45,565 nt of DNA, taken from Planctomyces sp. SH-PL62. GTDB taxonomy: Bacteria > Planctomycetota > Planctomycetia > Planctomycetales > Planctomycetaceae. The position numbers and the translations under genes are program-made. The stretch lies in the NCBI GenBank assembly GCA_945905295.1, contig CAMDPX010000029.1, positions 1 through 45,565 of the forward strand, read 5' to 3'. Position 1 is the stretch's first letter, and each line of letters starts with the position of its first letter. Under the pieces are notes generated by a model. That model saw nothing but the letters and a program-made list of their open reading frames with translations, did not search any database and had not been told where the DNA came from. Shown one piece after another: positions 1,814-41,699 of the stretch.

Positions 1814-1904
1814 CTGTGAAGTTTTCGTGGAGCACGTTTTCAACGTGCTCGAAAATAGGCAGATTGGGCACGTTGAAAACGTGCCCCACGTCATTTATTC
1901 ACAG
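1814..1904. repeat. Repeat family A, copy 1 (91-bp composite form)
   Basis: Two short palindromes built on GCACGTTTTCAACGTGC lie side by side, bounded by CTGTGAA and TTCACAG. The whole 91 bp is repeated in inverted orientation at 20396-20486 with two differences by eye. Shorter family A copies occur inside the polyketide synthase and histidine kinase genes. The 1671-2089 gap holds families E and A and a further inverted repeat; I see no gene in it. Confidence 0.85.
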
Positions 1905-7274: not shown

Positions 7275-7362
7275 GGGGTCGGGAGTCTTTTTCAGGTCGG
7301 CCCGCAACCTGACGACCATTCTGAAGTCCGATGCGGCCGACCTGAAAAAGACTCCCGACCCC
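7275..7362. repeat. Repeat family B, copy 1 (88 bp, intergenic)
   Basis: A perfect 28-bp inverted repeat (arms 7275-7302 and 7335-7362, starting GGGGTCGGGAGTCTTTTTC) with a 32-base centre. The same 88-bp unit, with conserved arms and a variable centre, occurs three times in frame inside the polyketide synthase gene (22858-22945, 23772-23859, 27238-27325). This is the only intergenic copy seen. It lies between convergent genes. Confidence 0.92.
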
Positions 7363-8871: not shown

Positions 8872-8993
8872 AGTGGCGGAGACTGTAAGCGGCTCCGCGC
8901 GGGCCGACAACGCGCGGCCGATTGAGCCGTGTCGACGCTGGATGAGCCTTGGCCGCCGCTTTCCGTGTAGGTAGCCATCACGCTTCGACCGAA

Positions 8994-10425
<1,432 letters not shown>

Positions 10426-10544
10426 CGCAGTGAAGCCGATGACCGATTACTGTGAACCCGATAGAATGCCGTCTCAATCAGACCACGATTTTTCGGAATT
10501 ACGCGCAATCACAGTCTCCTTGGTTTTGTGGGAATGGATGCAGT

Positions 10545-11765
10545 GTGAAGAACACGACAACGCCACCGTCGATGATCGACTTATTCTGCGGAGCAGGTGG
10601 CCTCTCGCTGGGATTCGATCGTGCCGGCTTTCAGACGGTGAGCGCATTCGACAACTGGCAACCTGCGGTCGAGACTTACCGAGCCAATTTGGGCGATCAC
10701 GTTCAGCGCGTCGCGATCACTCGTGACTTGGATATCTCTTGTCCGACGGTGATCGTCGGTGGGCCGCCGTGCCAAGGCTTCTCGTCGGCGGGAATGCGTC
10801 GAGCCAACGATGCCCGCAACTCGCTTGTCGGCGAATTCAGTCGCCTCATCGCGCGAGTTCGTCCTGCCGCGTTCATCTTCGAGAACGTCGAAGGATTCTT
10901 GACCGGAGCGCGTGGCGACTTCGTCTTGGAACTACTCGAACCGTTGATCGAGGCGGGATACCGAATCCATCTTCGTAAGATCAACGCCGCTCACTTCGGT
11001 GTTCCGCAGCATCGCAAGCGAGTCATCGCCATCGGCGGACTCGGCTGGGAACCATCTTTTCCAGAGGCAACACACGCCGCGTTTGGAGCACCCGGCGCGC
11101 ACCTCGCCAACGGCATGAGGTCGTGCGCGACACCCACGCTGGCTGATTCGCTTGCCGACTTGCCGCCAGCGTCCTGCAACGGCAATGAGTCATTCACCGA
11201 TCACGCCATCCAACTACTGAGCGACGAAGACTCGCGGCGAGCCAAGTTGCTGGAGCAAGGGCAAACGATGCGTGACCTGCCGGAAGAACTCTGGCATGAG
11301 AGCTATCGCAAACGAGCCTTTCGCCGTGTCATGGATGGCACGCCCACTGAACGACGCGGCGGTGCTCCGGCCGATGTGCGGCGGCTGCGTGCCGACGAAC
11401 CCTCAAAGGCAATCACTGGCGGCGTCTTACGCGAGTTCATTCATCCGACCGAAGACCGCCCGCTCACGCTTCGCGAATGCGCGACCTTGCAGACGTTCTC
11501 GGCAGACTTCCAATTCCAAGGGAGCGTGTCCGAGAAAGCTCAACTCATCGGCAACGCCGTCCCCCCGTTGCTCGCTCAACGAATCGCGGAATCACTTCGA
11601 CAAGACCTCGCGTCGCTGCGTCCGACTCGCGCCCCCGGCGCATTGCTGAGCTTCGTCCCGACGCTTGCCATCGGAATGAGTCCCGCCCTCGAAGAAGTCA
11701 CTCACCGAGTCAAGCGGCGATTCATGAGCGGAGCGAAACAGAAAGTGTTGCAACTATGGGACTGA
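10545..11765 (+). CDS. C5-cytosine DNA methyltransferase
   Basis: A 406-residue m5C methyltransferase with all main motifs in order: I (MIDLFCGAGGLSLGF), IV with the catalytic cysteine (GGPPCQGFS, Cys76), VI (FIFENVEGF), VIII (QHRKRVIAI), a target-recognition region about residues 190-320, then IX and X (LIGNAVPPLLA). The start is uncertain. GTG 10545 gives MKNTTTPPSMIDLFC; ATG 10572 begins directly at motif I, and ATG 10452 would overlap the hsdR junction. It is the first gene of a three-gene cassette on the plus strand, opposite to the flanking hsd remnants, and so probably came in with that cassette. It could be a host-protecting modification enzyme for the two genes that follow. Confidence 0.93.
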   Translation: MKNTTTPPSMIDLFCGAGGLSLGFDRAGFQTVSAFDNWQPAVETYRANLGDHVQRVAITRDLDISCPTVIVGGPPCQGFSSAGMRRANDARNSLVGEFSRLIARVRPAAFIFENVEGFLTGARGDFVLELLEPLIEAGYRIHLRKINAAHFGVPQHRKRVIAIGGLGWEPSFPEATHAAFGAPGAHLANGMRSCATPTLADSLADLPPASCNGNESFTDHAIQLLSDEDSRRAKLLEQGQTMRDLPEELWHESYRKRAFRRVMDGTPTERRGGAPADVRRLRADEPSKAITGGVLREFIHPTEDRPLTLRECATLQTFSADFQFQGSVSEKAQLIGNAVPPLLAQRIAESLRQDLASLRPTRAPGALLSFVPTLAIGMSPALEEVTHRVKRRFMSGAKQKVLQLWD

Positions 11766-11912
11766 CGAAAGCCCAAGCGGCGGGCCTCACCAACGAATGC
11801 TGTGTAAAGAGTCGCCCGCTGGTGCGCTCTCGGCGGCTGGAGGGATCAGGTCGACGCCCGTAAGATGAGCCGAATCATTCAGCCTCTTTCCTGCTCGTGA
11901 TAAACCACATCA

Positions 11913-14900
11913 ATGTTTCTTGAACAAGCACATCAATGGCTGGGATGGCCATCGCCCGAGCGAATCCTTGATCCACAAGGTGCGGGTGCGAGGGCGTCTT
12001 GGGAGTTCGCCAAACGCAAGATCAACGATTCGCTCAAGCAGAAGTTTCCGCAGCTACAAATTGAAACGGGCGTTCTCGTCCTGAATTCGGATTCAGCCGA
12101 TACGACAGCTCCGCTCGCGGTGGTCTGCCAGTTTGCGAGTGGGGCGAGTGACGAAGCGTTAGACGAAGCTCATCGTCTTGCCTGGAGCTTCTCCCGGACC
12201 TCGCTGCTCGTCACGTTGGAGCCACATCGAATCATTGCCTGGACGTGCTATTGCGATCCGAATCAGCCGGAACAATTGCGGCGAGTTTGCGAACTCCCCA
12301 CGCCGCCGATCTTCCCGCCAACGGGCACACCGGAGCAGCGCAACGTTCGCGATTTGTTGCATTGGGTCAGCCTCATCACCGGCCACATTCAGCGACAGCG
12401 ACCGACCCATTTTCCCGTCGATGGTCGAGCCGATGCGTTGCTGCTGAAGAACCTGCGGTACGTTCGCGGTCGCCTCTTGGCGATGGAGCTGCCGATGAAT
12501 TTCTGCCACGACTTGCTGGCGCGAATCATCTTCACGCAGTACCTCTTTCACCGTCGGGACGGCGACGGCAATGCGTTCTTCAGTCCGAGCCTTCTGGATC
12601 GCCTCAAGAAGGACGGAACACTGAAGCCATCCCATGACGATTTGGGATCGATCCTTCAGGATCACGGCGCAACGTATGCGTTGTTTCGGTGGCTCGACGA
12701 GCGTTTCAACGGCGACCTCTTCCCCGGCAAAGAAGACTCATCCGCTGAAGATCGAGAGGCAGCATGGCAAGCGGAAAGTGATGCCGTTCGCCCCGATCAT
12801 TTGCAGCTTCTGGCTGAGTTGGTGTCCGGGACAATCGACACGACGGATCGACAACTCCGTCTCTGGCCGCAGTACTCATTCGACACGATCCCGTTGGAGT
12901 TCATCAGTAGCGTCTACGAAGAGTTTCTCAACGAAGAGCGGTATCAAACCAAAGCCTTCTACACACCGTCGCATCTCGTGGACTATGTGCTTGACGCGGT
13001 CTTGCCATGGGACGGCGACGAGTGGGACTTGCGCATCTTGGACCCGTCGTGCGGCTCGGGCATCTTCCTGGTGAAAGCGTTTCAGCGGTTGATCTATCGC
13101 TGGCGTCGAGCCAATCGCCGCGAACCGCTGGTAAGCGACCTGAAGCCGATCCTGGCGAAGAATCTCACTGGCGTAGACATCAACCCGGAAGCGGTGCGAG
13201 TTGCCTGCTTCAGTCTCTACCTCGCGATGGCTGACGCCATCGAGCCGAAGCATTACGTCACACGCGAAAAGGTGTTTCCACCGCTGCGCGGCAAGCGGCT
13301 GATCGCGAACGATTTCTTCGACGAGACGATTTCGGGATTTCAAACGCACGACGACAACGGGACGTTCGATTTAGTCATCGGCAATGCGCCGTGGGGCGAC
13401 AAGTCGATCAAGAAGACATCGGACATCGCTGCCGCTTTTTCGCCGAACCCTCGCAAGAAGAAAGACGAACCGCCAACGAATGCCGAAGCGTGGGCCAGGG
13501 GGCATGATTGGCCGGTCGCCAACAATGACATCGGCCCGTTGTTCTTGGCAAAGGGACTGAAACTCGTTCGAGACAACGGCAAGGTCGCGATGGTGCAGCC
13601 TGCCGGACCGTGGCTCTATCACCGAGCCGAACCTGCGATGCAGTTGCGGAAGCGGCTCTTTGAAACCTGCACTATCGATGAAGTCACGAACCTCTCGGCG
13701 ATTCGACGCGAACTCTTCACCGACGCGATTGGCCCCGCCTGCATCATCGTCGTCGGGAAAGAGCAACCTGCGCCCGATTCCACACTCTCGTACTTCACTC
13801 CCAAGCCACTGAAGACTGAGGGACCGATCAAAGACTTCACGATCGAACCGCAAGACGTCTCCCGCGTTTCACATCACGAAGCCGCCAACGATCCGTTAGT
13901 CTGGCCGGTGCTTTCGATGGGAGGCCGGCGAGATTTGAATTTGATTCGCAAGCTCGCCTCGTATGAAACGCTCGTGAAGCTCAAGGCGAAAAATGAAGTC
14001 ATGACGCGAATGGGCGTCATCCCCGGTGACGAAAAGAAGTTGCTCCCCGAACTCAGAGACAAGCCGTATTTCGATGCGACCGAGTTTCCGGAGGATGTGT
14101 TTTTGGAACTCGATGCCGCAACGGTACCTGGCTGGAAGGAGCCACGAGTTCACAGCCTTCATGGCATCAAGCACTTTGAAGAGTTCAAGAACCCGCAGCT
14201 TCTGATCAAGCAAAGTTTCTCTGCGAAAACCGGCCGCTTTCGCGCCGCGCTGGTCCGGTCTGACGATCCCGAATGGGGCGTCGTCTGCAAGAAAACGTAC
14301 CTCTCGGTTCGCGACCAATCGTCAGACTCGCGGCACATTCACGCCGCTTGCCTAGTCTACAACAGCTTGCTCGCCTCATATTTTCTGGCTCTGACCAGTA
14401 GCCGGATTAGCCACTACATCACGGAGACTCTGACCCAAGAATTGATGACCGTCCCGCTGCCGAAGCCACTCGTCGATCTAGCAGGCGTGAGTTCATTCGA
14501 CGAGATCGACGAGTTGACCCGCAAACTATTCGCGCTCACCAAAGCGGATTGGACCCTGGTCGAAGACTTGCTGGAGTTCACGTTGCCGGACGCGATCCGC
14601 AAGACCCCCGGTCCTGGACGGCAGAAGACGAAACGCGATGACTCGCATGATGGCTCGGAACCGGAGTTATCGATTTACGCGCAGACAATGTTCCGAGTCC
14701 TCAAGAGCACCTTCGGCAGCGACAAGGCCATCGCTGCGACGATCTATCAGGAGCCGGACGGCCAACCGTTGCCAGTCCGCATGGTCACGCTGCATTTCGA
14801 CTGGCCCGGCCGCAAGCCGTTGACCGTCGAGCCTATCGAAGCCGATGGACTGCTCGACGAACTCTCCAAGTTCCATCGCGACACTTTGCAACGCAGGACG

Positions 14901-15107
14901 CGCACGGCCAATGGCACCGGCTTGGGCTTCCAGCGTGTTGCCTTCTTCTTCCACTCGCATCAGGCGGAGCATGGTCGAGTTCGAAACCTGACCATCATCA
15001 AACCCGACGAACGACGCTACTGGACGCGATCTTTGGCGATGCGCGATGCCGATGATCTCGCCGCCGCCATCTTCAAGGCCGCCGGCTGGAAGGGCGAGCG
15101 TCCATGA
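11913..15107 (+). CDS. Eco57I-like N6-adenine DNA methylase, 1064 residues
   Basis: Large class I SAM-dependent methylase in the style of type IIG/Eco57I enzymes. Motif X-like region YTPSHLVDYVLD and motif I DPSCGSGIFLVKAF (about residue 377) are clear. Motif IV reads VIGNAPWG (Asn491), with Ala in place of the usual first Pro of NPPY/NPPW. The 370-residue N-terminal part is helical and unassigned; I see no intact D...ExK nuclease motif in it. The C-terminal 500 residues, with segments such as ISHYITETLTQELMTVPLPKP, are typical of the target-recognition half in such enzymes. A linker rich in Lys/Asp (PGPGRQKTKRDDSHDG) separates a last domain (about 930-1064). It overlaps the next gene by 4 bases (ATGA), suggesting coupled translation. 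Confidence 0.85.
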   Translation: MFLEQAHQWLGWPSPERILDPQGAGARASWEFAKRKINDSLKQKFPQLQIETGVLVLNSDSADTTAPLAVVCQFASGASDEALDEAHRLAWSFSRTSLLVTLEPHRIIAWTCYCDPNQPEQLRRVCELPTPPIFPPTGTPEQRNVRDLLHWVSLITGHIQRQRPTHFPVDGRADALLLKNLRYVRGRLLAMELPMNFCHDLLARIIFTQYLFHRRDGDGNAFFSPSLLDRLKKDGTLKPSHDDLGSILQDHGATYALFRWLDERFNGDLFPGKEDSSAEDREAAWQAESDAVRPDHLQLLAELVSGTIDTTDRQLRLWPQYSFDTIPLEFISSVYEEFLNEERYQTKAFYTPSHLVDYVLDAVLPWDGDEWDLRILDPSCGSGIFLVKAFQRLIYRWRRANRREPLVSDLKPILAKNLTGVDINPEAVRVACFSLYLAMADAIEPKHYVTREKVFPPLRGKRLIANDFFDETISGFQTHDDNGTFDLVIGNAPWGDKSIKKTSDIAAAFSPNPRKKKDEPPTNAEAWARGHDWPVANNDIGPLFLAKGLKLVRDNGKVAMVQPAGPWLYHRAEPAMQLRKRLFETCTIDEVTNLSAIRRELFTDAIGPACIIVVGKEQPAPDSTLSYFTPKPLKTEGPIKDFTIEPQDVSRVSHHEAANDPLVWPVLSMGGRRDLNLIRKLASYETLVKLKAKNEVMTRMGVIPGDEKKLLPELRDKPYFDATEFPEDVFLELDAATVPGWKEPRVHSLHGIKHFEEFKNPQLLIKQSFSAKTGRFRAALVRSDDPEWGVVCKKTYLSVRDQSSDSRHIHAACLVYNSLLASYFLALTSSRISHYITETLTQELMTVPLPKPLVDLAGVSSFDEIDELTRKLFALTKADWTLVEDLLEFTLPDAIRKTPGPGRQKTKRDDSHDGSEPELSIYAQTMFRVLKSTFGSDKAIAATIYQEPDGQPLPVRMVTLHFDWPGRKPLTVEPIEADGLLDELSKFHRDTLQRRTRTANGTGLGFQRVAFFFHSHQAEHGRVRNLTIIKPDERRYWTRSLAMRDADDLAAAIFKAAGWKGERP

Positions 15108-15763
15108 CCCGCCGACGCACCTTCAGCGATATCGCGTTTGCCGCCGACACCGACAACGCTGATCTTCCAGTCGAGTGGGCACGCGGTGTCGCAGCCCAAG
15201 TTCTCGAATGGACGTGGCAGGCATTCGACCAATTGCGTGAGAAGCACTTGCAGGGAGTCGACTTCAGCCAGCCGCTCGATCAATTGGAACGTGATCTCAC
15301 TCGCCATCACTACCTCGATCTCCAGCAGGTTTTTCACACGGCAACGGAAGGTTTTTGCTCGCTGCTTCCCGAACGTGAATGGGACGAGATGGAAAGCCTC
15401 TCGTCCTCACAGGCCAAACCTCCCGCCTACGATTTCGCTTTCGTCCACATCGAACATCGCCGTTGGGCATGGCCCATTGAAGCCAAGGTGTTGCCGACGC
15501 CGGGAACATTGAGCGAGTACGTCAATGAGATTCACACCAAGTTCGTCGGAGGTGTTGCGGCTCCATTGGTTGGCGAGGCCGGCATGATCGCCTACCTGCT
15601 TTCCGGTTCGGCAGACACATTTTTCGTCAATCTTGAAAATCGGCTTGCGGTGGTGCTCGAAGTGGTCGCTGAGTTCCCGAATCGGCCTCATCGAACTTCA
15701 ACACATTCTCGTCCCACTGCCCCAACACTCCGCCTTCACCACATGGTCATGGCCTGCCACTGA
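15104..15763 (+). CDS. Possible PD-(D/E)XK nuclease partner of the methylase
   Basis: A 219-residue protein whose start ATG overlaps the stop of the methylase gene (ATGA at 15104-15107), so the two are likely made together. The region PAYDFAFV ... WPIEAKV gives Asp110, then Glu126-Ala-Lys128: the D-x15-ExK spacing of PD-(D/E)XK nucleases. Predicted strands and helices around it fit (EFLSS excluded; [19 protein letters not shown]). A C-terminal [10 protein letters not shown] may be structural. I cannot name a family. With the two methylases it would make a full restriction-modification set; alternatively it is an accessory or specificity protein. The last 30 codons have lower third-position GC than an overlapping +1 frame that runs to 15794, so the exact C-terminus is uncertain. 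Confidence 0.55.
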
Positions 15764-15804
15764 GCCGAGGAACGTGGCTGGGTGGCACACCTGACGCTTT
15801 TGGT

Positions 15805-16810
<1,006 letters not shown>

Positions 16811-16814
<4 letters not shown>

Positions 16815-16957
16815 GCTCGGGCTCGGCGTGTGAAAGCGTTGATGGTGCGGAGCGTGCGCGAAGCCGTCAATACGCCCGGCGTGATGATCTCGTCCGGCAG
16901 CCGTCGGAACGTTCCGTCTGTCAGGCGGACGTGGTTGAGCGCTTCGTAGCATTCGCT
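16811..16957 (-). pseudogene. C-terminal scrap of an ORF upstream of hsdM
   Basis: An open stretch of about 48 codons (YEALNHVRLTDGTFRRLP ... LRTINAFTRRARA) ends in a TGA that overlaps the hsdM ATG in an ATGA arrangement. Such coupling suggests it is the tail of a gene once translated with hsdM. An in-frame stop just upstream leaves no start codon. I do not recognise the family. It may equally be a chance open frame. Confidence 0.35.
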
Positions 16958-17087
16958 TCAAATTCACCCGCCAATGGGTGCGCGTCGACACGGCGTCTGG
17001 AATTCGTGAAGGATCGGTCGGATCATTGTCCTCGCAGCCTGAATCGGACTCGCTCAGGGACGATCTTTCTCCTCAAAGAAAACGAGT

Positions 17088-19184
<2,097 letters not shown>

Positions 19185-20395: not shown

Positions 20396-20486
20396 CTGTG
20401 AATAAATGACGTGGGGCACGTTTTCAACGTGCCCAATCAGCCTATTTTCGAGCACGTTGAAAACGTGCTCCACGAAAACTCCACAG
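20396..20486. repeat. Repeat family A, copy 2 (91-bp composite form)
   Basis: The inverted counterpart of 1814-1904, with two differences by eye over 91 bp. It sits between the bfr promoter side and the O-methyltransferase 3' end. Around it, segments with ACTCTCCGAGTC and CGACTCGGAGAGTC (20385-20535) form a second set of arms, so this copy lies inside a larger inverted repeat. Confidence 0.85.
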
Positions 20487-21801: not shown

Positions 21802-24800
21802 TCAGTCCTTCGCTGTCTTTGCGCGTTTCAGGCAGTCGGCCAATTCATCGACAACGACGCCCGCACCGGGGCCGCGCAACATGCCGTAGTGCGTACCGGG
21901 AATCCAGTGGACCTCGACGCCGTCGCGCGCGGTCTTCCGCCAGAACCAACCGACCGGACACAAACTGACCAGGCTGCTCTGCGACAGCCGGGCGCGGAAG
22001 TGCGTGATGCGGCCCGGATACGGAGCGACCAGATGCTCGCGGGTGACGGTTGTGTGCGTGCGCAGCCCTTCGTCCAGCACCGTGTGAAACATTCGGCGAA
22101 TCAGCCGCGACCGCACGTTGCGAATCAGGCCAATCAGGTGCGTGTGCAGGCACACGCGATAGTTGATCGCGTAGAACCAATCGAGCCAGAACGGGACATG
22201 CGACGGCGGATCGAAGATCACCAGCAGCCCGATTTGGTCACCCTGTCGCAACAGCTCGCAAGCCAACTCAACCACGATGATCCCGCCGGCCGAATAACCG
22301 CTGAGAAAATACGGTCCCGTCGGCTGCACTTTTTTGATCTCGGAGATGTAGGCCGAGACCAGCCGATAGATCGACATCTGACGAATCGTCTTGACCTGCT
22401 TCGCGCTGGCCGGCTGCAAGCCGTAGACCGGCTGATCCGCGCCGAGCGCATTCGCGATGTCCTGAAACGCCAGCAGGTCGCCGTAACCGGCGGGGACGAA
22501 GAACAGCGGCAGTTGATCGCCTCCCTGCTGCAACGGCACGAGATGCACGCGCGGCACGTCGAGTTCCAAGTTGCGCAGCTTGCTGCCGGGAACTTCCTGG
22601 AATCCGTGCGGCGGCTCTTTGTCCGAGTACAAGTACGTTGCGATCTCCTCGACCGACCGCCGCATCCGCAGCGGGTTCAGCGACAGCTCCATGTTGAGAT
22701 GCTGCCCAAGCTGTGTCCGCAATTCGATCGCCATCAGCGAATCTAAACCCAACTCCGATAGCGGCTGCTTCGGGTCGATCGACTCCACCGGCATCCGCAT
22801 GACACGCGCCGCGTGGCTGCGCACCAGTTCGATCAGCTCCGGTTGCGCAATCGGTAAGGGGTCGGGAGTCTTTTTCAGGTCGGCGGTGACACCGTTTGGA
22901 ACAGTCACTCGCGTTTCCGCCGACCTGAAAAAGACTCCCGACCCCGTCGCACCGGACTGCGCCAGATACAACGTGTGATTCGAGTCATCTCGATGCTTCG
23001 CGTCATTGAGGCACGCCACCTTTTCAAATCCCGTTTCGCCGAGCACCTGACACCAACGTTCGCGGCGCATCAGTGGATAATCGGGACGCAGATCGGTGTC
23101 CTCGAAGCTCCACCAACCGTCGATCAACGTGAAGACCATGTCTCCCCACAACGGCGGGTTCGCTCCTTCGAGCAGCAGCAGCCATCCCCCCGGCCGCAGA
23201 AGCTGACGAACGTTGGTCAGCGTTTCGCGCAACCTCGGCGTCGCATGCAGCACGTTGGCCGCGACGACCAAATCGAACGAACCCGCTTCCATGTCTTGCT
23301 CACCGAGCGGCCGGCTGACATCGAATAGTCGTGTGCGTAAAAACGGGAAGTCACTAAAGCGATCTTGGGCCGCACGTAAAAACAGCGGCGACAAGTCGGT
23401 GAAGGCGTACTCGGACCGCTCGGCCGGAAGCTGCGGCAGCAAGTGCGTCGTCAGGCCGCCCGTTCCCGCGCCGACTTCCAACACGCGGATCGTTTGACTC
23501 GCGGGAAGCGTCGCGATCATCTCTCGCACGACTTCACCAGCCAGCCGGTTGTACCCGGCGAGCATCCGCGCCTCGCTGTAGAACTCTGCTGCCTTCTCGG
23601 TCGAGCCATCCGGAAACAGAAACGTCAGCGGATCGACATCGCCGCACCAGATCGCCGCCAGTGCTTGTCCCGCGCGACGCACCAAATCGCATTCGGGATA
23701 GCGTTGTTCGCGTTCGACCTCGTCAAGCAATTCGTCCGCCGTTCCCTCCGGCTGAGGCAGCATCACGCGAAGGGGTCGGGAGTCTTTTTCATGGCGGCGA
23801 GTGTTGAGTGTGCCGTTCGTAACCGTGTGATCGCCGCCATGAAAAAGACTCCCGACCCCGTTGGCTTGCAACCACCCACGCTCAACCAACCGGCCCAGCA
23901 CGCGAGTGATTTTGGGATGGTTCTTCGTCGGGATTCGTGCGTCGATTTCCGCTGGCGAAATCTCCAGGCCGACTTGCCAGTCAAAACCCAATTGCTTGAG
24001 GGCGGCAATGACAAACCGGATCGCGACTTCGTCCAGTTGTCGCGTCATGTCACGAGACTCGTCCTCCAAGCCGACTCGCAAATGCTCAATGCGCGCGGCA
24101 ATCACATCCGGGTCAGGAAGGCTTGGCGAGCGGGGTGGCGTCAGCCCCCCGGTGCTTGCTTTGAGCGGAATGGCGCTAGCCACCGGTGAATCAGGATCGA
24201 CGATTTCCGGCGAACGACCGGCGGCTAGCGCCAAGCCGCTCACCAAACGAGACCGGGGGACCGACGCCGCCCCGCTCGCCTGAATCCTCCGTGCGAACCT
24301 CTGTCGTTGAAACGTGTACGTTGGCAGTTCGACTCGCGTGCGTGCGAACGGCGCGTGAAAGCCGCGCCAGTCGATCTCCGCGCCGCGCACGTACAACTCG
24401 CCGAGACTGTGCAGCATCGTGTCGCAGTCGCCGCGCCCTTTCGACAACGAGGGTAACCAGCGGTTGCGACGATCTTTCACGCAGCCCATGCCCATCGCCA
24501 ACAAGTTTGGGTTGGGACCGATCTCCAGAAACGTGTGGCAGCCCGTGGCGGCCAGCGCGCTGATGCCGTCCGCGAACCGCACCGGCGATCGAACGTGCCG
24601 GACCCAATACTCACCGCAACTCGTTTCCATTTCCGCGAGTCGCCCCGTCACGTTCGAGATGAGTGCCACCTTGGGCGGCGCAAAGTCCAGTCGTTCGGCA
24701 GCTTCACGGAACGACGGCAAGATCGGGTCCATCAAGGCGGAGTGCCCCGCGTTCGACGTGTTGAGCGGCTCAGCATCAAATCCCTCCGCGTGTAATCTCG

Positions 24801-27800
24801 CAGTCACCTGACGAACCGCTTCTCGCTCTCCAGAGATCACGATCGTGTCCGGGCCGTTGATGGCCGCGATCGAGATCTTCCCCTCGAAGGGCCGGATCGC
24901 TGCGGCCACCTGTGACTCGGTCGCCATCACGACCGCCATCTCGCCGGTCTGCGGCAACGCTTGAATCAATCGGCCGCGAGTCGTCACCAACTCCAGGCCG
25001 GTCTCCAAGCTGAACACGCCCGCCGCGCAGGCCGCCGCGTATTCGCCAACGCTGTGGCCAAGCACAGCGGAGGGCTCAATGCCCCAGGACTTCCAAAGCT
25101 CGGCCAGTGCGAACTGCAAAGCAAACAACGCGGGCTGCGTGTAGATCGTCTGATCGAGCCTGCGGTCGGCGTCGGATTGCTCGCTGAAGAGCACGTCCGT
25201 CAGCGGCCGATCCAACCGATCCCGCAGGAAGTCCTCGCAGCGGTCGATCGCCACGCGAAAGATCGGCTGTGTGGCATACAGCTCGCGCCCCATGCCGACG
25301 TACTGAGAACCTTGGCCGGTGAAGAGGAATCCGAGATTCGAATGGTCCGCCGGTTCATTCTTGGAGCAGATGCCACCGATGACCTCTGTCGGATCGCTGC
25401 CCGTGTGAAACGCTTGCAGCTTCGTTCGAAGTTCATCGCACGACACTGCGACGACCGCGATCCGCCGTTTGAAATGATCGCGGGTGGTCGCTGCGGAAAA
25501 GCATAAGTCTTCGAGCCGTAATTCCGGATGGGCTGAAATGTGGCCGCAGTATTTTTCAGCGAGCGATTTCAGAGCTTCATCGGATGCGGCGGTCAGCGTG
25601 AAGAGATGCAGCGGCGGTTTCGTGGGGCACGTTTTCAACGTGCCCGTCGCTGACTGGCACGTTGAAAACGTGCCCCACGAAACTCCCTCCACGATCACAT
25701 GCGCGTTCGTGCCACTGAAGCCGAAGGCACTCACCGCCGCGAGTCTTGCCTGGTGATCCACCGCTGGCCACGGGATCGACGTTGTCGGCACGACCAACGG
25801 CACGTCGTTCCAAGCGAAGTGCGGATTCGGCTTATCGAAATTCAAATGCGGCACGATGCGACCATGCCGCAGCATCAACACAACTTTGAGCAACCCAGCG
25901 ATCCCGGCCGCCGCTTCCAGATGTCCGATGTTGGTCTTCACCGAGCCGACATACAACCGGTTCGACACCGTTCGTCCGTCGCCGTACGCGCGGTGGAGTG
26001 CCGCCAATTCGATGGGATCACCCAGCTCTGTCCCGGTGCCGTGCGCTTCCGCGTAGTCGATGTCGCGGCCGTCGAGCTGAGCTTTGTGCAACGCCTTGCG
26101 GATCAGCCATTCCTGAGCTTGTCCGTTCGGAGCGGTTAGCCCGTTGCTGGCGCCGTCGTGATTGATCGCCGCCGCGCGGATGCACGCCAAGATCGGATCG
26201 CCATCGCGCCGAGCATCGGCCAGTCGCTTGAGCACGACGATGCCGCAGCCTTCACCACGGACGTAGCCATCGGCCGCCGCATCGAACGTCTTGCAGCGGC
26301 CGTCGGGCGCGAGCGCATGCAACCGGCACAGCGCGATCGTCGTCGCGGGGGACAACATCAAATTCACGCCACCCGCCATCGCCAAATGGCACTCGCCCGA
26401 TTGCAGCGACTGACACGCCTGATAGACCGCCACCAGCGACGACGAACAGGCCGTATCAATCTGCAAGACCGGTCCGTGCAGGCCGAGTACATAGGCGATC
26501 CGCCCGGCGGCAATGCTCCGCGCGGTTCCCAGCGTTCGGTAAGCGTTCAGGTCCGCGAGACCATTGCCATGATGCGACCACGTCGCGTGGTCGTCGGAAC
26601 TCATGCCGATGAAGACACCGGCTTCGCTGCCGCGCAAGCTGGTCGGTGCGACTCCGGCCTGTTCGAGCGACTCCCAGACAACCTCCAGCAAGAGACGCTG
26701 TTGCGGATCGAGTTCTTCGGCTTCGCGCGGAGTAATCCCAAAGAATCCGGCGTCGAACTCATCAACCGCTTCGACGAAGCCGCCGTGCCGAACATACATC
26801 TTGCCCGGTGCGTCGGCATTGCGATCGAAGTAGTCGTCCACGTTCCAACGCTCGCGCGGAATCTCACCGATCGCGTCGCCGCCACGTTCAAGCAACTGCC
26901 AGAACGCTTCCGGCGAATCGGCTCCGGGGAATCGGCAGCCCATGCCGATGATGGCGATGTCGTCGTGGGGCACGTTTCCAACGTGCCCGTTTTTGGCGGG
27001 CACGTTGGAAACGTGCCCCACGAGATGCTCGGCCAACGCATTGATGTTGGGATACGTCCAAAACACCGTCGCGGGAACGGGCCGGCCGAGCCAGGTTTCT
27101 AAGTCGAGAGCCAGTTCGACCGCTTTCACCGAGTCGAGACCAAGATCGGCGAAGGATCGCGACGCACCGCCGGCAACGTTGCCGAACGATGCCGCAAGCC
27201 TGGATCGGATGGCAGACTGCGTGCGAGTCGTCGCGAACGGGTCGGGAGTCTTTTTCATGTCGGCGGCAACGGGCTCTGGGTGTACGAGCGAGTTTTCCGC
27301 CGGCATGAAAAAGACTCCCGACCCCGTTTGGCGTCCAAGCTCATCGAGTTCGCCATTCAAAAACGCGGCCCGCATTGCGCGACGTTGGATCTTCCCACTG
27401 GTCGTCTTGAGCGCACCGCCCGGCTTGAGCAGCACGACTTCATGCAGTCGCAAGTCGTGCTCGTTGAAGACGGCCGCGCGAATCACGCTGAGCACGTCGT
27501 CGAGATTCACGCCGCGCAGTTGCTTGCCTTGCACCTCGCAAACGACGACCAGCGCTTCCTCGCCATTCACGTCGATGGAAAACGCCGCGCCGTGGCCGGT
27601 TCGCAACGCGGGATGGCTGCGTTCGACCGTCAGCTCAATGTCCTGCGGATAATGATTGTCTCCGCGAATGATGATCAGATCCTTGAGCCGGCCCGCAATG
27701 AAAAGCTGTTCGTCGCGCAGGAAGCCCAAGTCGCCGGTTCGCAAGAACGGCCCGTCTTCGGAATCCGCCAACCGAGCGTGAAAGGTCTGCGCGGTTTCCT

Positions 27801-29046
27801 CTGGCCGATTCCAATATCCCTTGGCCACGCAGGGACCGGCCACCCAGACCTCGCCGACTTCACCCGCGGCGCAGCGTTGCATGGTTTCCGCATTCACAAT
27901 CTCGACCTGCATCTCGTCGAGCACTCGGCCACACGAAACCGGATTTGAGATTTGAGATTTGAGATTTCCGATTTCCGATCGGGCGTGTGACACCATCAAT
28001 GTCGCTTCGGCCAATCCGTAGGCCGGTGCCAGCGCCGACTCGCTCAGGCCACAGTCTTTGAAGGCGTCGTAGAACGCTCGCTGTGTCTCCGAGCGAACTG
28101 GTTCGGCAGCGTTGGCCGCGACTTGCCAACAGGAAAGATCGAGCGTTGCGCGTTGTTCCGGCGTGATTTTTTGCACGCACAATTCGTAGGCGAAATTCGG
28201 AGCCTGGCTGTGCGTGACACGATATCGCGAGATCGCTTCCAGCCAGCGAATCGGCCGCTTGATGAACGACAACGGCGACATAAAGTAGCACGGCACGCCG
28301 ACGAACAGAGGGAGCAGCAGTCCTTCGATCAAGCCATAGTCATGGTGATACGGCATCCAACCGGCGACGACGCTGTGAGTGGAATAGCTCGCCGCCGCTT
28401 GCAAGAGCCGGCATTGGTTGAGCACGTTACCGTGGCTGACCATGACTCCCTTCGGGGTCGAGGTTGAGCCGGACGTGTATTGCAGGAACGCGACGTCGCC
28501 TGGAGCTGGTTCCTCGTGGGGCACGTTTTCAGCGTGCCCACTTCCGAACGGCACGTTGGAAACGTGTCCCACGACGAAGTCATCGGTCGCCAGCCAGAGC
28601 AGGCTCGCCAGCTCGGCGTCGAAATGCTGATGCAGTGTCGTGTGCAGCTCGCCGGTGGTCAGGACCAGCGCTGCTTGCGAGTCGGCGATGACCGACTTCA
28701 GACGTGGCAAGGCCCGCATCATCCGCGCCGCATCCGGTGGCGGCAGCGGCACGGGGATCACTCCGGCTTGCAGACAGCCAAAGAAGGCGACCAGAAACTC
28801 GACCCCCTGGGGATACAGCAGCAACGCTCGCGAACCACGCTCAGCCGATTCGCTCAAACGCGCCGCGATGACTCGCGCCGCAAGGTGCAATTGGCCATAG
28901 GTCAAGCTCGGCCCTGCATGTTGCCCGTCGATCAGGAACTGATACGCGAGTTGATCCGGTACACGCTCCGCACGGCGGCGCAGCAACTCTACCAGCGATC
29001 GGCAATCGCCAACAAACTGGTGGGGATCATCGAGCGGTGGGTTCAT
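21802..29046 (-). CDS. Single-module type I polyketide synthase, FAAL-ACP-KS-AT-MT-ACP-TE
   Basis: A 2414-residue assembly-line enzyme. Residues about 1-575 are a fatty acyl-AMP ligase (YTSGSTSTPKGVMVSHGN at 190). ACP1 has its phosphopantetheine Ser at 639 (LGLDSVKAVEL). The ketosynthase, about 695-1122, has Cys867 (DTACSSSLVAVY), HGTGTELGDP and KTNIGHLEAAAG. The acyltransferase, about 1190-1588, has Ser1332 (GHSVGEYAAA). A helical segment (1642-1729) precedes a methyltransferase (1760-2033, VLEVGAGTGGLTTHLL near 1856), probably C-methylating. ACP2 has Ser2103 (LGLDSLMAIEL), and the thioesterase has GYSAGG (about 2165-2414). No KR, DH or ER is seen. The expected route is to load a fatty acid, extend once, methylate and release a beta-keto product; this is inference. 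Seven palindromic repeats and one heptamer repeat are read in frame, adding about 210 residues, mostly at domain boundaries. Confidence 0.9.
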   Translation of the reverse strand: MNPPLDDPHQFVGDCRSLVELLRRRAERVPDQLAYQFLIDGQHAGPSLTYGQLHLAARVIAARLSESAERGSRALLLYPQGVEFLVAFFGCLQAGVIPVPLPPPDAARMMRALPRLKSVIADSQAALVLTTGELHTTLHQHFDAELASLLWLATDDFVVGHVSNVPFGSGHAENVPHEEPAPGDVAFLQYTSGSTSTPKGVMVSHGNVLNQCRLLQAAASYSTHSVVAGWMPYHHDYGLIEGLLLPLFVGVPCYFMSPLSFIKRPIRWLEAISRYRVTHSQAPNFAYELCVQKITPEQRATLDLSCWQVAANAAEPVRSETQRAFYDAFKDCGLSESALAPAYGLAEATLMVSHARSEIGNLKSQISNPVSCGRVLDEMQVEIVNAETMQRCAAGEVGEVWVAGPCVAKGYWNRPEETAQTFHARLADSEDGPFLRTGDLGFLRDEQLFIAGRLKDLIIIRGDNHYPQDIELTVERSHPALRTGHGAAFSIDVNGEEALVVVCEVQGKQLRGVNLDDVLSVIRAAVFNEHDLRLHEVVLLKPGGALKTTSGKIQRRAMRAAFLNGELDELGRQTGSGVFFMPAENSLVHPEPVAADMKKTPDPFATTRTQSAIRSRLAASFGNVAGGASRSFADLGLDSVKAVELALDLETWLGRPVPATVFWTYPNINALAEHLVGHVSNVPAKNGHVGNVPHDDIAIIGMGCRFPGADSPEAFWQLLERGGDAIGEIPRERWNVDDYFDRNADAPGKMYVRHGGFVEAVDEFDAGFFGITPREAEELDPQQRLLLEVVWESLEQAGVAPTSLRGSEAGVFIGMSSDDHATWSHHGNGLADLNAYRTLGTARSIAAGRIAYVLGLHGPVLQIDTACSSSLVAVYQACQSLQSGECHLAMAGGVNLMLSPATTIALCRLHALAPDGRCKTFDAAADGYVRGEGCGIVVLKRLADARRDGDPILACIRAAAINHDGASNGLTAPNGQAQEWLIRKALHKAQLDGRDIDYAEAHGTGTELGDPIELAALHRAYGDGRTVSNRLYVGSVKTNIGHLEAAAGIAGLLKVVLMLRHGRIVPHLNFDKPNPHFAWNDVPLVVPTTSIPWPAVDHQARLAAVSAFGFSGTNAHVIVEGVSWGTFSTCQSATGTLKTCPTKPPLHLFTLTAASDEALKSLAEKYCGHISAHPELRLEDLCFSAATTRDHFKRRIAVVAVSCDELRTKLQAFHTGSDPTEVIGGICSKNEPADHSNLGFLFTGQGSQYVGMGRELYATQPIFRVAIDRCEDFLRDRLDRPLTDVLFSEQSDADRRLDQTIYTQPALFALQFALAELWKSWGIEPSAVLGHSVGEYAAACAAGVFSLETGLELVTTRGRLIQALPQTGEMAVVMATESQVAAAIRPFEGKISIAAINGPDTIVISGEREAVRQVTARLHAEGFDAEPLNTSNAGHSALMDPILPSFREAAERLDFAPPKVALISNVTGRLAEMETSCGEYWVRHVRSPVRFADGISALAATGCHTFLEIGPNPNLLAMGMGCVKDRRNRWLPSLSKGRGDCDTMLHSLGELYVRGAEIDWRGFHAPFARTRVELPTYTFQRQRFARRIQASGAASVPRSRLVSGLALAAGRSPEIVDPDSPVASAIPLKASTGGLTPPRSPSLPDPDVIAARIEHLRVGLEDESRDMTRQLDEVAIRFVIAALKQLGFDWQVGLEISPAEIDARIPTKNHPKITRVLGRLVERGWLQANGVGSLFHGGDHTVTNGTLNTRRHEKDSRPLRVMLPQPEGTADELLDEVEREQRYPECDLVRRAGQALAAIWCGDVDPLTFLFPDGSTEKAAEFYSEARMLAGYNRLAGEVVREMIATLPASQTIRVLEVGAGTGGLTTHLLPQLPAERSEYAFTDLSPLFLRAAQDRFSDFPFLRTRLFDVSRPLGEQDMEAGSFDLVVAANVLHATPRLRETLTNVRQLLRPGGWLLLLEGANPPLWGDMVFTLIDGWWSFEDTDLRPDYPLMRRERWCQVLGETGFEKVACLNDAKHRDDSNHTLYLAQSGATGSGVFFRSAETRVTVPNGVTADLKKTPDPLPIAQPELIELVRSHAARVMRMPVESIDPKQPLSELGLDSLMAIELRTQLGQHLNMELSLNPLRMRRSVEEIATYLYSDKEPPHGFQEVPGSKLRNLELDVPRVHLVPLQQGGDQLPLFFVPAGYGDLLAFQDIANALGADQPVYGLQPASAKQVKTIRQMSIYRLVSAYISEIKKVQPTGPYFLSGYSAGGIIVVELACELLRQGDQIGLLVIFDPPSHVPFWLDWFYAINYRVCLHTHLIGLIRNVRSRLIRRMFHTVLDEGLRTHTTVTREHLVAPYPGRITHFRARLSQSSLVSLCPVGWFWRKTARDGVEVHWIPGTHYGMLRGPGAGVVVDELADCLKRAKTAKD
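22858..22945. repeat. Repeat family B, copy 2 (inside PKS, MT|ACP2 boundary)
   Basis: An 88-bp palindromic unit with the same arms as 7275-7362. On the coding strand it is read as GSGVFFRSAETRVTV ... ADLKKTPDP (about residues 2035-2063), in the same frame as copy 4. It falls between the methyltransferase and ACP2. Confidence 0.93.
23772..23859. repeat. Repeat family B, copy 3 (inside PKS, before MT)
   Basis: An 88-bp unit read in a different frame from copies 2 and 4: GVGSLFHGGDHTVTN ... RRHEKDSRP (about residues 1730-1759). The element is thus open in at least two frames. It separates the helical pre-MT segment from the methyltransferase. Confidence 0.93.
24125..24280. repeat. Repeat family C, copy 2 (inside PKS, after AT)
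   Basis: A 156-bp element (52 codons) with outer arms GGCGAGCGGGGTGGCGTC and GACGCCGCCCCGCTCGCC and a nested TGGCGCTAGCCACCGG / CCGGCGGCTAGCGCCA pair. It is read in frame as a Pro/Ser/Ala-rich linker (about residues 1590-1641, SIPLK-like [16 protein letters not shown]) between the acyltransferase and the pre-MT segment. The same nested pair recurs at 36735-36842. Confidence 0.92.
25621..25679. repeat. Repeat family A, copy 3 (inside PKS, after KS)
   Basis: A 59-bp double palindrome (CGTGGGGCACGTTTTCAAC and its reverse complement) read in frame as SWGTFSTCQSATGTLKTCP (about residues 1123-1142). It directly follows the ketosynthase end motif GTNAHVIVEG. Confidence 0.93.
26964..27022. repeat. 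Repeat family A, copy 4 (inside PKS, ACP1|KS boundary)
   Basis: A 59-bp unit read as VGHVSNVPAKNGHVGNVP (about residues 676-695), one frame different from copy 3. It separates ACP1 from the ketosynthase start DIAIIGMGCRFPG. Confidence 0.93.
27238..27325. repeat. Repeat family B, copy 4 (inside PKS, FAAL|ACP1 boundary)
   Basis: An 88-bp unit (first base changed, so GGG rather than GGGG) read as GSGVFFMPAENSLVHP ... DMKKTPDPF (about residues 575-603). It lies between the acyl-AMP ligase and ACP1. Confidence 0.92.
27942..27976. repeat. Heptamer tandem repeat inside the FAAL domain
   Basis: Five 7-base units (GATTTGA three times, then GATTTCC twice). On the coding strand they are read as IGNLKSQISN (about residues 357-369). 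Because 35 is not a multiple of three, gain or loss of one unit would break the frame. Confidence 0.85.
28515..28573. repeat. Repeat family A, copy 5 (inside PKS, within FAAL)
   Basis: A 59-bp unit read as VGHVSNVPFGSGHAENVP (about residues 158-178), a short distance before the adenylation motif at 190. Unlike the other copies it lies inside a domain, probably in a surface loop between core strands. Confidence 0.92.
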
Positions 29047-34336: not shown

Positions 34337-34355
34337 GTCATCCTCCTTAAATCTT

Positions 34356-34434
34356 GGCGAGCGGGGCGGCGTCAGCCCCCCGGTTTCTCAACGGTTTCAC
34401 GGATTACCGGGGGGCTGACGCCACCCCGCTCGCC
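34356..34434. repeat. Repeat family C, copy 3 (79 bp, simple form)
   Basis: Arms GGCGAGCGGGGCGGCGTC and GACGCCACCCCGCTCGCC enclose a short centre with no nested element. It lies just upstream of the proS ribosome-binding site, so its hairpin could affect proS mRNA. Confidence 0.9.
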
Positions 34435-34573
34435 AGTTCGTTGGCGGCGTCGAACTTAAGTTTGGGGCGGGATTCTAGCGGGACAGACGATGGGCGACAG
34501 GTTTCCCACTCAGAACGGATTTGACGCCGCGAAACTGTGACCTAAGTTCCACACGCCGAAACCTACTGAGGAG

Positions 34574-37979: not shown

Positions 37980-41699
<3,720 letters not shown>

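Follow-up and report, generated by a model that had tools for sequence, protein, structure and literature searches.

The window analysed here, a stretch of 45,565 nucleotides from Planctomyces sp. SH-PL62, raises the question of how palindromic DNA comes to be read as protein at several points of one enzyme. On its minus strand, a stop-free open reading frame of 2414 aa encodes a polyketide synthase (Table 1). The Pfam matches on this protein comprise AMP-binding (FAAL; aa 22-412 and 456-568), KS (695-1071), AT (1240-1556), methyltransferase (1840-2010), PP-binding in two stretches (best 2074-2139) and TE (2180-2283). Repeat searches revealed in-frame palindromes of several families within it, namely three direct copies of family A (GGGGTCGGGAGTCTTTTTC), three of family B (TCGTGGGGCACGTTTTCAACGTGCC) and one composite element C. 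The initial annotation had described these seven stretches (3 + 3 + 1) in the same order, which is correct after exchange of two names (its "A" is B here, its "B" is A here). It had also taken C for one element. Such an element is indeed present between AT and the pre-MT region, but it consists of a hairpin C1 with a second hairpin C2 nested in its loop, so that the synthase holds eight elements in total. The seven stretches sum to 607 nt (~202 aa) and a heptamer array adds ~9 aa, in agreement with the ~210 residues estimated before. The element placed by the initial annotation within FAAL, just before the adenylation motif, was found there as a copy of B. At this site the protein exceeds the aligned FAAL structure 7r7g by ~10 residues, and the site measures 47 aa in the window versus 40 aa in the congener G010 and in a more distant homologue (L037); a degenerate B-like peptide is present in a second congener, G007. 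The KS/AT copy of B is translated in a reading frame (VSWGTFSTC..) unlike that of the other two B copies (VGHVSNVP..). No intein or hint domain was found among the 18 Pfam families listed for the synthase, and the elements encode just ~20-53 aa.

Table 1. Features of the synthase locus. Positions refer to the window and residues (aa) to the encoded protein; features of the synthase are listed in their order along the enzyme.
Feature	Position	Strand	Remark
FAAL-ACP-KS-AT-MT-ACP-TE polyketide synthase gene	21802..29046	-	ORF and Pfam domains
B element inside FAAL, just before the TSGSTSTPKG stretch	28514..28574		aa ~158-178
Heptamer tandem repeat GATTTGA, 3.7 copies, in FAAL	27942..27967		21 nt longer in G010
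A element, FAAL/ACP1	27239..27324		aa ~575-603
B element, ACP1/KS	26963..27023		aa ~675-695
B element, end of KS and KS/AT linker, other reading frame	25617..25683		aa ~1122-1144
C1 element, AT/pre-MT	24125..24280		aa ~1590-1641
C2 element nested in the C1 loop	24162..24242		G007 likewise has a C2 here; G010 has none
A element, pre-MT/MT	23772..23859		aa ~1730-1759
A element, MT/ACP2	22858..22945		aa ~2035-2064
C1 element in hybrid histidine kinase gene (37980-41699, minus)	38321..38401		aa ~1072-1100
Intergenic A copy	7275..7362		
Intergenic B copy	1826..1890		
Intergenic B copy	20410..20474		
Intergenic C1 copy	34355..34435		

The families are abundant far beyond this gene. In the 8.6 Mb genome of the organism (G000), in G007 and in G010, the 18-nt half-site of A occurs 349, 17 and 151 times, respectively. 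The corresponding numbers are 246, 10 and 39 for B, 548, 339 and 191 for C1, and 37, 46 and 206 for a further family, D; the reversed-pattern controls gave 0 in each of these genomes, which places the repeats well outside chance. Among 47 genomes outside the genus, the half-site of A was found only in G025 and that of B only in G051, C1 gave one match each in four genomes, and D occurred in five other genera of the family. The earlier observation that the same elements lie between genes is borne out by intergenic copies of A, B and C1 in the window. One sample of this genome (L076-L093) contains 127 hairpins in 360 kb, ~1 per 2.8 kb; by similarity, 24 clusters were formed, a few of them of low complexity. 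High-copy palindromic doublets forming a hairpin are a feature of REPs and REPINs that these families share. A, B, C1 and C2 begin otherwise than with the GTAG end tag of REPs, which does stand at the start of three other families of these genomes (E, G and T), and A to C are termed REPIN-like here, rather than GTAG REPs, because they lack this tag.

For identification of the evolutionary state of each element, synthase orthologues were searched in 59 genomes, the own genome included. Full-length orthologues were found in two congeners, G007 (87%) and G010 (90-93%), and the states were read from three-way protein and DNA alignments. Between FAAL and ACP1, A is present in the window and in G010, and G007 retains just its last bases, a remnant that could have arisen by deletion between direct AGAC repeats. 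Between ACP1 and KS, B in the window and G010 is matched by C1 in G007, and the KS/AT site carries three different hairpins in the three congeners (B in the window, D in G010, H in G007). At MT/ACP2, A is shared by the window and G010, and another hairpin, F, occupies the site in G007, where what looks like the right end of A may be left over beside it. An extra hairpin E lies near the KS end in G007 and an extra imperfect palindrome G inside AT in G010. The domains are kept in both congeneric orthologues while elements are present, lost or replaced, as the alignment to related synthases proposed at the outset could reveal. An assembly artefact is unlikely, given that the state of the elements differs among the three assemblies. 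Exact half-sites of A and B occur in the synthase of the window and G010 and not in that of G007, those of D only in G010, and those of C1 in all three. They broadly follow the counts of the resident families in each genome, except that the rank order of C1 copies in the synthase differs from that of the C1 counts in the three genomes compared. Elsewhere in the window (8925-17089), PADLOC identified type I REase pieces, a type II MTase, a type IIG-like enzyme and a type I MTase. This restriction-modification stretch is absent from the syntenic contig of G010, on which the flanking matches end ~28 bp apart.

The element peptides are absent at the covered sites in five distant homologues (L036, L037, L038, L039 and L041; only L037 is full-length). 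The anchors of the pre-MT/MT site are 29 aa apart in 5/5 of these homologues versus 55 aa in the window and G010. Recurrence of the same linker peptides at the same places in distant genera, named in advance as evidence for ancestral sequence, was not found in these five homologues, four of which are partial. Judged from the alignments, the segments are insertions and no part of the enzyme family, in line with the initial annotation. The repair factor Mfd offers a parallel, as an A element is present in G000, G002 and G010 and absent in G004 and G009. In this alignment, the rows of G003, G001 and G011a were excluded as short wrong frames, and G005 was left out, as were C-terminal pieces from G008 and G011; the row of G008, a partial one, lacks the A element, and G006 and G007 gave no match at the threshold.

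Genes for IS200-like transposases (PF01797) gave 13 matches in the own genome and are often flanked by hairpins. One of them, on contig C115, has A hairpins on both sides and encodes a protein of 221 aa (Y1_Tnp match 2.9e-10), whose NHWH and YVERN we take to be the HUH and tyrosine motifs of RAYTs. For A, a cognate Y1 transposase flanked by its repeat, as in REP and REPIN systems, is thus at hand; none of the 41 Y1_Tnp loci examined has B or C1 beside its transposase gene. The related repeats A2 and A3 flank the transposase genes of contigs C222 and C288, respectively. The end GGGGTC is common to A, A2 and A3, each of which borders a transposase gene of its own (L101, L102, L103); this suggests a radiation of one transposase-repeat lineage. 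The 10-nt motif of C2 adjoins transposase genes at 5 loci in 4 congeners, on both sides at one of them (G010:C40) and on one side at the other four. Family D adjoins a single transposase gene, on one side, in G006. The ORF of this IS200-like transposase (L166:1863-2510) ends in in-frame repeats of family D (TRSVSEGERSPNAQ).

Taken together, the palindromes are very probably REP/REPIN-like, non-autonomous mobile hairpins, with which several genomes of the genus are crowded. Movement of the hairpins by transposases is inferred here, and a mechanism can be outlined as follows. RAYT-type transposases would move the hairpins and insert them widely, and selection would purge most insertions into genes. 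Those that survive would have a stop-free frame, a length that keeps the frame and a flexible site in a large protein. Such sites would be used again, as one family decays and another resident family takes its place. Its large size and long natural linkers would explain why the synthase has collected many elements. At none of the elements was a target duplication established, which counts against the reading as mobile hairpins.

The action of selection was analyzed in a sample of the own genome, consisting of the window, which may be repeat-rich, and 58 of the 61 largest contigs, each represented by its first 20 kb (16 kb in one case). Two further stretches (L094, L095) were excluded, because they had been fetched for their PKS genes. 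The sample comprises 1,201,565 bases with 852 genes predicted by an in-house hexamer script and is 85.4% coding. It contains 365 merged hairpins, 220 of which are intergenic, as expected of mainly extragenic REPs and REPINs. Another 64 lie at gene edges or in regions of doubtful coding signal, and 81 lie inside 59 genes (6 in the synthase). With 145 of 365 touching a gene in sequence that is 85% coding, the depletion of hairpins from genes is overwhelming. Those inside genes keep their length class modulo 3 in 27 of 29 cases (A 8/9, B 7/7, C1 7/8, C2 5/5), an excess over the copies outside genes (permutation P 0.003) that stems from A and C1, because most B and C2 copies outside genes fall into that class as well. 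For A alone, P is 0.057, and family T shows no signal. The number of open frames out of six is higher inside than outside genes for A (4.0 vs 2.6) and B (4.6 vs 2.7), and intragenic copies of C1, C2 and T are no more stop-free than outside ones. That the elements evolved as stop-free sequences can be rejected. Outside genes, A, B and C1 have 2.6-3.1 open frames and C2 1.5, compared with 3.07 in shuffled hairpins, and openness is therefore no built-in property.

The rate of elements depends on gene size: none was found in 377 genes below 300 aa, and the rate is 0.24/kb at 800-1200 aa and 0.12/kb above. The synthase carries 6 hairpins versus 1.3 in other genes of at least 800 aa (P 0.002, a significance lost on correction for the 78 such genes). 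Specific targeting of PKS genes does not apply, as elements occur in 58 other genes of the sample and are missing from two further PKS-like genes of this genome; the hosts include genes for HypF, Mfd, an RNB-domain ribonuclease and several protein kinases. In seven protein kinases of the sample (L086, L087, L090, L119, L122, L132, L154), an element lies within the kinase domain. The keeping of the frame indicates that the element segments are presumably translated. From the depletion in genes together with the frame constraint there, it follows that selection filters the intragenic survivors, as the initial annotation had proposed; the dependence on gene size agrees with this.

The initial annotation had further assigned the elements to domain boundaries, which largely holds for the synthase and is not supported as a general rule. 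In the synthase, the linkers account for 16.6% of the protein without its elements, as delimited with hand-set borders (first ACP, TE end) and element stretches padded by a few residues, and contain 5 or 6 of the 7 sites (P 0.002 or 0.0001), depending on whether the KS-AT linker module (PF16197, which covers the site) is counted as a domain. In the histidine kinase of the window, the C1 element sits between the receiver (949-1062) and Hpt (1125-1205) domains. Outside the synthase, 21 of 65 elements lie inside a Pfam domain versus 24.4 expected at random (P 0.20). This test covered 65 of the 81 intragenic elements (the 6 of the PKS, 1 of the window kinase and 9 in 7 proteins without a domain above the cut-off were dropped) and used a hand-typed domain table with a few stretches below the cut-off and a few hand-extended split domains. 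With the PKS elements put back, 22 of 71 lie inside versus 27.9 expected (P 0.07). In a stricter table without below-cut-off or hand-extended domains and with the window kinase added, 17 of 66 lie inside versus 22.5 expected (P 0.08). Outside the synthase, the preference for boundaries is thus modest, with 17-21 of ~65 elements placed inside domains. In proteins with at least two domains, 25 of 46 elements lie between domains versus 16.0 expected (P 0.003).

An AlphaFold model of synthase residues 1640-2070 gave pLDDT values below 50 for both A elements, at model residues 92-115 (pre-MT/MT), between two confident strands, and at 396-431 (MT/ACP2), the end of the modelled piece. The low values may partly result from missing homologues across the inserts, and a further low stretch (338-347) corresponds to no element. 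A model of FAAL, built with 4 sequences, had a mean pLDDT of 34.7 and was set aside. Tolerance of the elements in flexible stretches, loops within domains included, fits these findings best, and the element peptides of the synthase are probably extra floppy linkers.

A wider role can be imagined, in which the mobile hairpins serve as a permanent stock of exchangeable protein linkers. They would insert repeatedly at the same inter-domain points and be replaced by whichever family is active. In this way they would drive the evolution of megasynthase linkers in length, sequence and even loop inversion, sometimes with advantage; we regard this as rather unlikely. It is quite improbable, too, that the elements are kept for improving the enzyme, beyond mere tolerance. 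The three orthologues do carry similar numbers of hairpins by one criterion (7, 6 and 6), with families differing at the same points, and there is some enrichment between domains, but similar numbers, replacement and enrichment are all expected from tolerance alone. Moreover, elements occur in many unrelated proteins, and two of the three A loops common to the window and G010 have strongly diverged.

According to the initial annotation, the repeats might instead act as recombination seams through which whole domains are swapped between synthases. Repeats of the same family do flank several domains on both sides, and one of three element loops looks inverted between the window and G010 (P 0.004 inverted vs 0.36 direct), so that exchange between arms may occur. 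A change of identity at the repeats would be expected from swapping, but the DNA of the window is closer to G010 than to G007 in 9/9 inter-element segments (in 8/9 at the protein level, the exception being ACP1 with 61 aa). No change of domain ancestry at repeats was seen in the three congeners, and the two other PKS-like genes of the genome carry no hairpin by the same criterion. Domain swapping is accordingly very improbable. The loop that seems inverted is that of A at FAAL/ACP1, the sole sign of recombination at an element. In comparison with L023 and L035, the two arms of this A element and of the one at pre-MT/MT carry matching changes, as if they had been corrected against each other. 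That the segments are ordinary ancestral linkers which merely look repetitive is scarcely conceivable, for although the homologues, too, have long, variable linkers at MT/ACP2 and KS/AT, hundreds of copies of these sequences are spread over the genome, intergenic ones among them, and the peptide-free homologues and the differences between congeners contradict it.

The preferred reading as REP/REPIN-like mobile hairpins has several precedents. In the parts considered here, Di Nocera et al. (2013; PMC3733652) describe GTAG/CGTC REPs lying wholly within ORFs, where dimers and groups encode 20-30 aa, and suggest that intragenic REPs are tolerated in flexible linkers or loops. They report REPtrons, tyrosine transposases flanked by repeats, list planctomycetes among the REP carriers and find different REPs at about the same site of recB in two Xanthomonas species. 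Palindromes inside ORFs, a repeat-flanked tyrosine transposase and the exchange of families at a site are thus shared with the elements described here, but A, B and C lack the GTAG tag. Presence, loss and replacement at multiple sites of one gene in three congeners are added here, as is the comparison of inter-domain placement with random expectation. In the same source, TIRtrons consist of tyrosine transposases (TIRYT) flanked by TIRs with the end motif GGGGWSAS. A, A2 and A3 resemble these in beginning with GGGGTC and lying on both sides of Y1 genes; the motif is matched by A4 (GGGGTCAG) and not exactly by A (GGGGTCGG). A planctomycete-rich class of such transposases is described in PMC6006769, as far as its relevant passage goes.

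REPINs are characterized, in the part of Bertels and Rainey (2011; PMC3116915) concerned with their structure, as inverted REP doublets that form a hairpin, are linked to RAYTs and reach hundreds of copies. They are described there as extragenic, whereas 81 of 365 hairpins lie inside genes here. Palindromes of ~100-150 bp in frame in protein genes are known from Rickettsia as RPEs (Ogata et al., 2000, 2002, as cited in passages of PMC2229807 and PMC3767692), and the segments encoded by them are reported in the latter passage to be solvent-exposed. As with RPEs, conserved genes were found here to carry in-frame insertions that some of their orthologues lack, namely the synthase gene and that for Mfd. 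The likeness is one of description and concerns another phylum; the RPE passages cited name no transposase, while family A has one that it flanks. A literature search in titles and the beginnings of abstracts, with most subscription journals outside its coverage, found no paper on insertions of this kind in planctomycete megasynthases. REPs that lie in frame within genes are already known, and the notable features of the present case are the density of the elements and the replacement of families at the same sites.

For annotators, these results are a warning that the peptides encoded by such elements are no conserved protein sequence. For the biology of these planctomycetes, they provide a natural experiment on the conversion of mobile DNA into protein, with 81 in-frame insertions from several independent families in 1.2 Mb of sampled sequence. 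For a given copy, close relatives that have it can be set beside others that lack it, and for one family the transposase gene is present in the same genome. The tolerance of intragenic REPs in linkers and loops thereby becomes measurable over many genes.
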